64,000 nt of DNA from Rhizobium sullae (GTDB lineage: Bacteria > Pseudomonadota > Alphaproteobacteria > Rhizobiales > Rhizobiaceae): contig NZ_CP104144.1 in the NCBI RefSeq assembly GCF_025200715.1, positions 2,232,001 to 2,296,000 of the forward strand, read 5' to 3'. The notes beneath the pieces are model-generated. The model saw nothing but the letters and a program-made list of their open reading frames with translations, searched no databases and was not told the origin of the DNA. Position numbers and translations under genes: made by a program. Numbering within the stretch: the first letter of the stretch is position 1; every line of letters begins with the position of its first letter. Below are positions 59,929 through 63,037 of this stretch, one piece after another.

Positions 59929-60254
59929 TCAAGGGTCAGGCCCCGGCCCTGAACGCTTATCGGAGTCTGGCGCGGCGAAGGCACGCGTACCGAGTGTTCG
60001 GCAAGAACTGGCTCGCTCTCACTGTGTTGGCAATTCTTTCCGCCCCGGCGAACGCCTCCGATGCAGGCAGCAATAGGCATGAAATAAAGGATGAACACAG
60101 GATGACAGATCATCCCTACGTCGGCATGTGGACGACCAGCGACAATAGGGTTCGGCACAATCTGCTGCCGAGCGGACGTTACGACGAAGCGCGCGGAAAT
60201 CGCGAAAGCGCCTATGAAGGTCGCTACGAGATCCGGGGCAATCACATCGAGTAT
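59925..60254 (+). pseudogene. Atu4866-like gene, 5' part, interrupted by IS element
   Basis: ATG 59925 overlaps the SDR stop (ATGA). An N-terminal signal-like stretch (WLALTVLAILSAPANA) precedes the conserved TDHPYVGMWTTSDNRVRHNL and SAYEGRYEIRGNHIEY of the Atu4866 family. At 60255 an insertion sequence cuts the gene; the frame now ends C-stop two codons into it. ATG 60102 is the start of the conserved part. Joined with 61668-61754 it reads on as WDDTGFTADG without loss of a base. Confidence 0.85.
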
Positions 60255-60332
60255 TGTTGAAGTGGACGGCTCCCAACGGCATCGAATGTGCCAGAATGAG
60301 TTCGTTGAAAGCTCAATCGAGGGAGACCGTCC

Positions 60333-61382
60333 GTGGAACAGATTATCCGAATTGGAATGGATACGTCAAAGAACGTTTTCCAATTGCATGGCGTGAATGC
60401 CAACGAGCAGCCTGTGCTTCGCAAGAAGCTATCCCGCAGGGAAATGGTGAAGTTCTTCGAGAAGACGCCGCCGACCACTGTTGCGCTTGAGGCGTGCGGC
60501 GGTTCGCATCACTGGGCGAGATTGCTAAGCTCGTTCGGGCACGAGGTGAAGCTGATCGCGCCGCAACTGGCAAAACCTTACGTCAAGCGCGGCAAGAACG
60601 ATGCGGCGGATGCAGAAGCATTGTGCGAGGCGATGAGCCGGCCGACCATGCGCTTCGTGCCGGTGAAGACTGCCGATCAGCAGGCAGCCTTGATGCTGGT
60701 CGGAGTGAGGGAAAGGTTGATCCGCAATCGCACCCAGCTTGCCAATACTATCCGCGGCTTTGCGATGGAATTCGGTGTCACCGCCGCCAGGGGCATATGC
60801 CGGATCGAACCGTTGCTGGAGCGGATCGCCACCGATCAGTCTATGCCGGAACTGGCACGCGAGCTCTTTGCCATGCAGGGTGAGGAATATCGCGAGCTGC
60901 TTGCCGAGATCAAAATCGTCGATGAACAGCTGATGGCCCTGCATCGCGCTGATGAATGCAGCAAACGGCTGGCGGAAATCCCCGGCGTCGGACCGATCGG
61001 CGCTTCGCTTCTGATGTTGAAAACCCCGGACCCGACGATGTTTAAATCCGGACGTGATTTTGCCGCCTGGATCGGCCTGACGCCAAAAGATCATTCGACG
61101 GCCGGCAAAGTCAGGCTCGGTGTGATCACCCGCGCCGGCGACGAGATGTTGCGAAGTGTGCTGGTGGCGGGTGCAACCGCTGTTCTTCAGCCTATTCGCA
61201 CAGGTCGGAGTAAAAATGCTTCTCCCTGGCTCCTTGAGCTCCTCAAACGCAAGAAGCCAAAACTGGTCGCGGTGGCACTGGCCAACAAGATCGCCCGGAT
61301 CGCCTGGAAGCTGATGGTCAGCGGGGAAGCGTACCGGAGACAACCCCAAGATATCCCGCAGGCCGCAGGACTGGCGGCATAA
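60333..61382 (+). CDS. IS110/IS1111-family transposase (DEDD)
   Basis: 349 residues, GTG start. The RuvC-like acidic residues are in RIGMDTSKNVFQ, VALEACGG and KRGKNDAADAEAL. The C-terminal Tnp_20 domain has IPGVGPIGASLLM and GRDFAAWIGLTPKDHSTAGK, with the Ser used in strand transfer. It is full length and undamaged, so the element may still be active. The transposase should work with an RNA from the element's right end. Confidence 0.9.
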   Translation: MEQIIRIGMDTSKNVFQLHGVNANEQPVLRKKLSRREMVKFFEKTPPTTVALEACGGSHHWARLLSSFGHEVKLIAPQLAKPYVKRGKNDAADAEALCEAMSRPTMRFVPVKTADQQAALMLVGVRERLIRNRTQLANTIRGFAMEFGVTAARGICRIEPLLERIATDQSMPELARELFAMQGEEYRELLAEIKIVDEQLMALHRADECSKRLAEIPGVGPIGASLLMLKTPDPTMFKSGRDFAAWIGLTPKDHSTAGKVRLGVITRAGDEMLRSVLVAGATAVLQPIRTGRSKNASPWLLELLKRKKPKLVAVALANKIARIAWKLMVSGEAYRRQPQDIPQAAGLAA

Positions 61383-61667
61383 CAGATCAGCCCATCACGG
61401 TGAGCAGAGAATGACCGCTACTGTGCTGAGCTGATGCGTGAACTTGCAAGAAGGAAGCAGATGGTGTGATCGATCGATCCAAGACGCGTGATGCTCCGTT
61501 TGTCCCACTGGCCGTTAAAGGTCGAAGTATTGTTTGGAACTCGCGTCGCGGAAACCATCTTGGCCAGTGGTCATGTGCGGCCACACCCAAAGGCCGCACA
61601 TATGGAAGCAAGCGATCCGATCAAAATTATCTGCAGAAAACACTTGCAAGTGGGAGCCGTCCACATA
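61383..61667 (+). ncRNA. Candidate bridge RNA (seekRNA) region of the IS element
   Basis: 285 noncoding bases after the transposase, the place where IS1111-type elements encode their guide RNA. Stem 1: CCACTGGCC 61505-61513 with GGCCAGTGG 61562-61570 around a 48-base loop. Stem 2: ATGTGCGGCC 61573-61582 with GGCCGCACAT 61592-61601. The loop of stem 1 contains AGTATTG (61526-61532), equal to the target just left of and including the core TG. CACATATG at 61597-61604 equals the donor right end plus core. GTCCCA at 61502-61507 is complementary to the target right side TGGGAC. Confidence 0.55.
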
Positions 61668-61754
61668 TGGGACGACACCGGCTTCACGGCCGACGGAACC
61701 TTCGTCGACCGAAACACCCTTCACCATGGCGGAATGATTCTGCGGCGCCGCTGA
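61668..61754 (+). pseudogene. Atu4866-like gene, 3' part
   Basis: Continues the interrupted gene in frame: WDDTGFTADGTFVDRNTLHH then GGMILRRR and TGA at 61754. With the 51 codons from 60102-60254 it makes a 79-residue protein, about the normal length of the family. Excision of the element would therefore restore the gene. Confidence 0.85.
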
Positions 61755-62044: not shown

Positions 62045-62671
62045 CTAGGCAGCCTTAACGGACACGCTCGCTGCCCTGAAGGCTATGAGGTCTTCAATCG
62101 TGATCAGATGAAGACCATGCTGTTCGGCAAAGCGTTCGAGCTCCGGCAGACGTGCCATCGTGCCATCGTCGTTGGCCACCTCGCAAATCACGCCGGACGG
62201 GGATAGACCGGCAAGCTTGGCGAGGTCCACCGCTGCTTCGGTGTGGCCAGGGCGGGAAAGGACGCCGTTCGCATGGGCTCGAAGCGGAAAGATATGACCT
62301 GGCCGGGCAAAATCGTCGGGGCGAGAACCTTCCCTGACGAGTGCTCGAACGGTCGCGGCCCTGTCGGCGGCGGATATCCCAGTCGTCGTTTCGGGAATGT
62401 AGTCCACGGAGACGGTGAAGGCGGTCTTCAGCACCTCGGTGTTGCGTGGCACCATCAAAGGAATATCAAGCTCATCAAGCCTCTCGCCTTCCATCGCAAC
62501 GCAGACGAGGCCACGAGCTTGATTCATCATGAACGCGATTGCTTGCGGAGTTACGGCTTCCGAAGCGATCACGAGGTCGCCTTCGTTTTCCCGGTCACGG
62601 TCATCGACAACAACGACGATCTCGCCCCGCGCAATTGCGGCGATCGCATCGTCGATTTTGGAAATTGCCAT
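62045..62671 (-). CDS. ribB: 3,4-dihydroxy-2-butanone 4-phosphate synthase
   Basis: 208 residues from ATG 62671. It converts ribulose 5-phosphate to the four-carbon precursor of riboflavin. The metal and substrate motif VVDDRDRENEGDLVIASE and the later RPGHIFPLRAH and SRPGHTEAAVDLA are diagnostic. No GTP cyclohydrolase II domain is attached. It is preceded by an FMN riboswitch, so it is under flavin feedback. It is monocistronic here. Confidence 0.93.
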   Translation of the reverse strand: MAISKIDDAIAAIARGEIVVVVDDRDRENEGDLVIASEAVTPQAIAFMMNQARGLVCVAMEGERLDELDIPLMVPRNTEVLKTAFTVSVDYIPETTTGISAADRAATVRALVREGSRPDDFARPGHIFPLRAHANGVLSRPGHTEAAVDLAKLAGLSPSGVICEVANDDGTMARLPELERFAEQHGLHLITIEDLIAFRAASVSVKAA

Positions 62672-62760
62672 CTTCTTGCCTTTCAAGGGTTAGCCGCTGT
62701 GAGCGGCGTGCATGGCCTGTCAGAGCCACCATTTTCCCTTGGGCGAACAAGCATACGAAA

Positions 62761-62779: not shown

Positions 62780-62790
62780 TCCGCTGCATT

Positions 62791-62927
62791 GCTCTCTTCC
62801 ATCCGGACTGTAACCGTCGGCTCCGGCATCTCACCGGATCTGCTGACCCTCCGTATCCACGAAGGCGCTCGCGGGCTCCGAGTTGCCTCGATACCGCCGG
62901 TGGGGAATTGCACCCCGCCCTGAGAAC
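62791..62927 (-). promoter_or_regulatory. FMN riboswitch (RFN element)
   Basis: Read on the minus strand from 62927: GTTCTCAGGGCGGGGTGCAA, ATTCCCCACCGGCGGTA, and near the end CCGACGGTTACAGTCCGGAT with GGAAGAGAGC. These are the conserved RFN parts in the right order and spacing. It controls ribB about 120 bases downstream; FMN binding should shut it off. Confidence 0.93.
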
Positions 62928-63037
62928 GCATGCAACATAGAGGATCGATGCCTTGTTGTGCAAGAGGTCGCCGGCCGCCGACCGAGCGAAAATCCGGTTT
63001 TCCCAGTGAACGCACCGTTCCTTATTGTCGAATAAAG

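Follow-up and report, generated by a model that had tools for sequence, protein, structure and literature searches.

Among described systems, those closest to the locus reported here are the IS1111 seekRNA elements ISEc11, ISPa11 and ISKpn4 (Siddiquee et al. 2024, PMC11187229). As set out there, the signature of IS1111 is a pair of subterminal inverted repeats with a 7-bp left and a 3-bp right extension, the RNA holds its top-strand match before its bottom-strand match, which is the reverse of the IS110 order, and a TA variant of the C-terminal transposase motif is found occasionally. The second point of comparison is the bridge RNA of IS621, from the IS110 group (Durrant et al. 2024, PMC11208160; Hiraizumi et al. 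2024, PMC11208158), whose two loops each carry a left and a right guide that meet at the core, and whose handshake guides (positions 81-82 and 166-167), located 3' of the right guides, form pairs with the partner DNA when the top strands are exchanged (PMC11208158). In the parts of these papers drawn on here, the IS1111 RNAs are presented as target seekers (PMC11187229) and the IS621 RNA as a bridge between target and donor (PMC11208160), and donor-binding bases had already been predicted by inspection in a few IS1111 RNAs (PMC11208160). A search of the open-licence literature, outside which most subscription journals lie, returned no paper describing covariation of donor guides or of a handshake in IS1111, and none on IS1111 strand order.

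Our locus lies in a window of 64,000 nucleotides (the whole stretch of DNA that was analysed) from Rhizobium sullae. It shares with ISEc11, ISPa11 and ISKpn4 the repeats with 7-bp and 3-bp extensions, the absence of a target duplication, the downstream noncoding region as the site of the putative RNA, and a top-strand match 5' of the bottom-strand match (PMC11187229). The sequences of the element and its target are new, while the kind to which it belongs, seekRNA or bridge RNA, is already known; it further differs from these three elements in that donor guides and handshake-like bases covary too. As in IS621, the predicted RNA has two loops, in each of which a left and a right guide meet at the core, target and donor would both be read, and bases past the core appear to read the partner DNA (PMC11208160, PMC11208158). 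Unlike IS621, in which the left guide is 5', each loop here places the right guide before the left guide, the RNA would be encoded downstream of the gene in the right end rather than in the left end, and the inverted repeats are long (PMC11208160, PMC11208158); the handshake-like bases follow the left guides on their 3' side, as opposed to the right guides in IS621 (PMC11208158).

The element and its insertion site comprise the following features.

60255..61667, + strand: complete insertion sequence of the IS1111 group (bounded by the inverted repeat and its 7-bp and 3-bp extensions; a frame is restored on joining the flanks)
60333..61382, + strand: transposase gene, 349 aa (Pfam and NCBIfam matches)
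60255..60261, + strand: left terminal extension TGTTGAA, the right donor side, LX1-LX7 (sequence; 7-bp rule)
60262..60275, + strand: left subterminal inverted repeat GTGGACGGCTCCCA (14/14 complementary to 61651-61664)
61651..61664, + strand: right subterminal inverted repeat TGGGAGCCGTCCAC (perfect, 14 bp)
61665..61667, + strand: right terminal extension ATA, the left donor side, RE-3 to RE-1 (sequence)
61383..61667, + strand: downstream noncoding region of 285 bases, which would encode the guide RNA (conserved fold and guides)
60102..60254, + strand: left part of an interrupted Atu4866-family gene (joined-flank frame; Pfam)
61668..61754, + strand: right part of the same interrupted gene (joined-flank frame; Pfam)
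60250..60254, + strand: left target bases LT-5 to LT-1, AGTAT (left target guide agrees 5/5)
61668..61675, + strand: right target bases RT+1 to RT+8, TGGGACGA (right target guide agrees 7/8, with a mismatch at RT+7)

The transposase matches PF01548 (DEDD_Tnp_IS110, 2.8e-13) and PF02371 (Transposase_20, 1.8e-20) in Pfam and NCBIfam NF033542 (transpos_IS110, 'IS110 family RNA-guided transposase', 6e-96), and its C-terminal motif, judged by eye, has the GL-P----TA form. Among the structure matches listed there is no chain close to this transposase; the solved ISCro4 and IS621 transposases (9t56, 8wt6 and others) resemble it in the C-terminal part (residues 173-335 at 5e-11, 170-334 at 7e-9), and these distant matches do not include its N-terminal domain. 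The noncoding region is exactly the stretch from the transposase stop codon to the right end of the element. When the flanks are joined without the element they form one open frame with a Pfam Atu4866 match at 4e-37, and the joined 120 bases of flanks were matched in 28 of the 61 genomes searched, the window's own included; in the 27 other genomes, all matches listed but one (query 61-93) span the flank joint. The restored frame therefore gives the target as GAGTAT^TGGGAC, without duplication, and with it every DNA hallmark of the IS1111 group is present: a DEDD transposase, an inverted repeat with extensions, a downstream noncoding region and no target duplication. A broken remnant of a related transposase, in several frames, lies elsewhere in the window's own genome (G000:C2, about 1090679-1091236; L093, L094 and L099).

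Searches against Rfam 15 returned nothing up to E 1 in 61383-61667, and across the whole window the sole match at the gathering score was an FMN riboswitch (RF00050, 115.5 bits) at 62787-62931 on the - strand, just upstream of a 3,4-dihydroxy-2-butanone 4-phosphate synthase gene (62045-62686, - strand; Pfam DHBP_synthase 3.8e-87).

Relatives of the element were drawn from the best 80 of 575 genome-contig loci, the window's own genome, sampled genomes and viral contigs; 10/297, 27/385 and 44/398 of the sampled genomes gave a match, and further stretches were added. An early set held 86 elements (from the best 80 of 575 relatives and others), 66 of them with both ends, of which 39 were used, four being left out by name and 23 for identity under 60% (27 in all), and these were reduced to 29. 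For the discovery set, 247 transposase matches in 245 loci yielded 178 that passed the end rules, 156 of them distinct; four at contig edges were dropped, leaving 152 with both flanks, and clustering at 85% left 113. A replication set was fetched later, with matches in 30/321 and 44/347 genomes; usable ends were found for 59 of 92 matches (33 failed), giving 48 non-redundant elements less than 85% identical to the discovery set. As a control for covariation, the DNA was permuted within clades only, so that shared ancestry was kept, and scans over about 200 columns left out near-constant columns (null standard deviation <=0.7).

The original prediction had read guides for both target and donor from single matches in this noncoding region, and the matches that it named on the target side are where it placed them: AGTATTG at 61526-61532 is identical to the rebuilt target up to and including TG, and GTCCCA at 61502-61507 is the complement of the target right side TGGGAC. 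Within the comparison sets, these extend to two target guides.

61500..61507, + strand: right target guide TTGTCCCA, with the core complement CA at 61506-61507 (RT+3 to RT+8 covary)
61526..61532, + strand: left target guide AGTATTG, with the core TG at 61531-61532 (LT-1 to LT-5 covary)

In a first test on the 29 close elements, 0/10000 permutations equalled the observed pairing, both to the left and to the right of the core. Across the 113 discovery elements, with permutation within clades, LT-1 to LT-5 track 61530-61526 by identity (z 8.1-10.7) and RT+3 to RT+8 track 61505-61500 by complement (z 7.6-9.7), and 0/1000 permutations reached the observed count at any target-guide column. Every one of these columns repeats in the 48 new elements (left z 5.5-7.7, right z 2.8-4.1). 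The guides thus covary with each target, and the outcome named as refuting the original prediction, copies with identical loops beside unrelated targets, did not occur. The order within the loop, top-strand match (61500-61507) and then bottom-strand match (61526-61532), is that reported for IS1111.

At the level of single copies, the guides of the window's element match their own target at 10 of 11 positions outside the core (binomial 8e-6 if a chance match is taken as 1/4 per position), while their best score against the targets of 160 other elements is 8/11. Over all 161 elements, the own target is strictly the best match for 76 guides and ties for 31 more; it is matched at <=5/11 positions in 28. 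One genome (G071) holds two elements whose transposases are 95% identical to that of the window and whose left guide is AATAC, as against AGTAT in the window's copy; the first (L116) adjoins AATAC and matches its guides in full on both sides, and the second (L107) matches 6/6 of the right target and 2/5 of the left. The window's own genome contains five copies of a 72%-identical element (L088-L092), always at CCCGACC^TGAGAGATAGGTG and with the same guides.

On the donor side, CACATATG is present at 61597-61604 as claimed and equals the right end of the element plus TG. The absence of any match for the right donor, also reported at the outset, holds in part: the family does have a right donor guide, but in this copy only 2/5 of its positions pair, which explains the missing match.

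61597..61604, + strand: left donor guide CACATATG, with the core TG at 61603-61604 (RE-2, RE-1 and core base 1)
61554..61558, + strand: right donor guide ACCAT, LX7 to LX3 in relatives (covariation; 2/5 pair here)

Position 61601 equals RE-2 in 113/113 discovery elements (z 6.2) and in 47/48 of the new set (z 6.1); 61602 equals RE-1 in 111/113 (z 5.6), and in the new set RE-1 is too constant for the within-clade test (z 2.0). Rare right ends are tracked as well, with ATC answered by ACATCTG and ACA by ACACATG, and one element (L085) with CCATACA has GGATACA. The left donor guide follows the right end of the element and is therefore real. Tandem repeats of the right end were seen in two elements: L032, at a distance of 24 bases, and L224, with three places spaced by 38 bases.

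For the right donor guide, 61554 complements LX7 (z 4.0 in discovery, 3.4 in the new set) and scores highest for LX7 among about 200 columns in each set. Position 61555 complements LX6 with a within-clade z of 1.3 in discovery, which is no signal, and 4.2 in the new set; in scans for LX6 it falls outside the top five in discovery, ties for first with 61464 in replication and ranks fourth when pooled. No covariation signal was found among the 113 elements for core pairing by this guide (61559, 61560). Another candidate, a CCAACA that immediately precedes the second GGCC in the donor hairpin, was dropped because by eye it is absent in many relatives; 61554-61558 is supported by the scans instead.

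The original prediction spoke of guides ending at a common core dinucleotide. On the sequence evidence, both left guides read the first core base, as does the right target guide with less strength. At 61603, the base of the left donor guide agrees with the one that opens the left extension in 106/113 elements (z 6.9) and in 39/48 of the new set (z 5.5). A fully shared dinucleotide is not upheld, since in 23/113 and 14/48 elements left extension and right flank agree in the first base and disagree in the second. Where the ends differ in this way, the left extension has A in 21/23 and 13/14 cases, and an A at this position would improve the -10 box of the circle. Three elements of Microvirga sp. 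VF16 (L023, L024 and L048) have a right flank beginning AG or GG, not TG; their right target guide encodes AG and both left guides TG, so that the core differs within one RNA.

Applied to the window's copy and 27 relatives, 28 sequences in all, RNAalifold gave a conserved fold of two loops, each having a closing stem and two guides with a hairpin between them; the guides lie in unpaired stretches of this fold.

61484..61546, + strand: target loop (stems 61484-61490/61540-61546 and 61495-61497/61536-61538; fold)
61509..61524, + strand: hairpin between the target guides (fold)
61561..61596, + strand: hairpin between the donor guides (fold; outer closing stem 61548-61550/61607-61609)
61459..61464, + strand: 5' strand of a helix whose partner, 61555-61560, overlaps the right donor guide (pairing and pair changes)

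Counted over 33 of the 40 predicted pairs (the seven joining the 5' part to the inverted repeat were left out) and over 28 rows, of which one (L116) spans part of the region only, 96.4% of cells pair and 16 pairs have changed on both sides, which 0/500 shuffles reached. When partners are slid by 1-3 columns pairing falls to <=36%, a control that favours the fold to some degree because the fold was derived from the same alignment. In the window's copy the third outer pair of the donor loop is G.A, unpaired, and the folding energy of its RNA alone is unremarkable (z -1.64; 11/200 shuffles fold as well).

The two perfect stems that the original prediction took as loop closers are present, the 9-bp stem at 61505-61513/61562-61570 with 48 nt between its arms and the 10-bp stem at 61573-61582/61592-61601. 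They are not conserved as helices: in the 28 sequences 71.3% and 77.5% of their cells are paired, with covariation no greater than in shuffles, and they cross the conserved hairpins and are peculiar to this copy. It is the different, two-loop fold that is conserved.

The further helix 61459-61465/61554-61560 is paired in 95.8% of cells in the 28 sequences, with pair changes seen in the 113 elements. Its overlap with the right donor guide means that this guide may be covered in the free RNA. Despite its conservation, this pairing is insufficient as the sole explanation of the right donor guide, with 61554 complementing LX7 but not 61465 in 52 elements and the reverse in 14. The helix gives the impression that the guide is covered by a copy, in RNA, of the left end of the element.

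Beyond the core, two bases behave in a manner reminiscent of handshake guides, each tracking the DNA of the opposite partner.

61533, + strand: handshake-like base, 3' of the left target guide, tracking donor LX3 (z 4.5; replicated, z 3.3)
61605, + strand: handshake-like base, 3' of the left donor guide, tracking target RT+3 (z 5.2; replicated within clades, z 2.8)

In the 113 elements, z 4.5 for 61533 with LX3 compares with 1.9 for the neighbouring RT+3, and z 5.2 for 61605 with RT+3 with -0.9 for donor LX3. In the new set, 57/4000 permutations were as good for 61533 with LX3, the alternative RT+3 giving z 0.0, and 34/4000 for 61605 with RT+3, the alternative LX3 giving z 1.9. The base 3' of the right target guide, 61508, is complementary to LT-1 in cis, with z 5.6 in discovery and 4.1 in the new set, and gave no trans signal; RE-1 hardly varies, so the IS621-type alternative is weakly tested.

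These observations suggest a model in which IS1111 elements are mirror-image bridge systems, with reversed guide order, handshake 3' of the left guides and bottom strands exchanged first, to which we would give slightly less than an even chance. Here 61533 and 61605 would read the bottom strand of the partner DNA, and the position of these bases 3' of the left guides makes bottom-strand exchange first, opposite to IS621, the simplest prediction. The mirrored handshake itself, judged from covariation, is quite possible, although not established.

An alternative that we rate tentatively, somewhat below an even chance, is that both signals are indirect, 61605 pairing with 61505 within the RNA and the link between 61533 and LX3 reflecting shared ancestry. 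In its favour, among the 81 elements that have the RT+3 base at 61605, this base is also complementary to 61505 in 53; against it, 61605 equals RT+3 without complementing 61505 in 28 elements and the opposite holds in 12. LX3 shows little variation within clades (99 observed, 93.5 expected), yet within the window's clade LX3 and 61533 have changed together in L120 and in L182. The scans of about 200 columns speak both ways: after filtering, 61533 ranks first for LX3 in both sets, and 61605 ranks second for RT+3 in discovery (behind the guide base 61505) and third in replication (behind 61505 and 61506), whereas in the unfiltered LX3 scan 61473 lies slightly ahead of 61533 (z 4.9 vs 4.4; 35 observed, 32.2 expected). 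The indirect reading also draws on the z of 1.9 for 61605 with LX3 in the new set and on a weak cis signal of 61534 with RT+4 (z 2.9, discovery). A longer handshake, adding 61606 with RT+4, was rejected on replication (z 3.2 in discovery, 0.4 in the new set), a failure that fits this alternative too.

Irrespective of the handshake, the element is an IS1111-group insertion sequence whose downstream noncoding region very probably encodes a bispecific guide RNA. This reading builds on what the aligned elements show of both target guides, of the left donor guide and the greater part of the right one, of the guide order and the fold, and of how the first core base is read. The bridge-RNA interpretation proposed at the outset is borne out to this extent, as target guides track targets and the left donor guide tracks the right end.

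A more economical account, which we consider improbable, is that of an RNA that seeks the target only, with the transposase recognising the ends through the inverted repeats and the donor matches arising as a by-product of ancestry or of the repeat. The protein could indeed recognise the inverted repeats, the window's copy has a weak right donor guide, and PMC11187229, in the part drawn on here, names target matches only and reports that an 82-nt RNA with target matches is sufficient for ISEc11 movement, leaving no obvious need for a donor loop. The agreement of 61601 with RE-2, in all but one of the elements of the two sets, nevertheless exceeds within-clade permutations, and the tracking of the first left-extension base by 61603 (z 6.9 and 5.5) and of LX7 by 61554 (z 4.0 and 3.4) likewise speaks for a bispecific RNA.

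That the matches are chance similarities in a noncoding stretch without guide function is extremely improbable, for although those of the single copy come to 5 and 5 of 11 non-core positions in two short segments and the folding energy is unremarkable, the total of 10/11 stands against <=8 for 160 other targets, and covariation in both element sets already refutes this reading at the level of the family.

For the bispecific guide RNA, published IS1111 and IS621 work suggests a course of events in which the element would excise as a circle, the joined circle ends would form a promoter for the transposase and the RNA, and the transposase would assemble with the RNA, which pairs circle junction and target, and recombine the two at the core. 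Insertion into GAGTATTGGGAC would then depend on 61500-61505 and 61526-61530. A candidate promoter is found where the ends would meet.

61644..61649, + strand: TTGCAA, -35-like, which would make up a promoter-like pair with TATGTT (61666-61667 joined to 60255-60258 in the circle)

The -10 of such a promoter-like pair lies at the same place in 139/161 elements (101 with spacing 17, 38 with spacing 16), an uncontrolled count in which the place is partly set by the search rule. If the left extension begins with TA, a TATAAT can arise where the ends are joined (L195 is an example), and this may account for the frequent difference between the ends in the second core base.

Taken together, the covariation of donor guides across 161 elements speaks for bispecific RNAs in IS1111 as well and pinpoints the bases involved. 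The mirrored handshake signal makes the strand order of IS1111 directly testable and, if the handshake is real, IS1111 elements may exchange their strands in mirror order.
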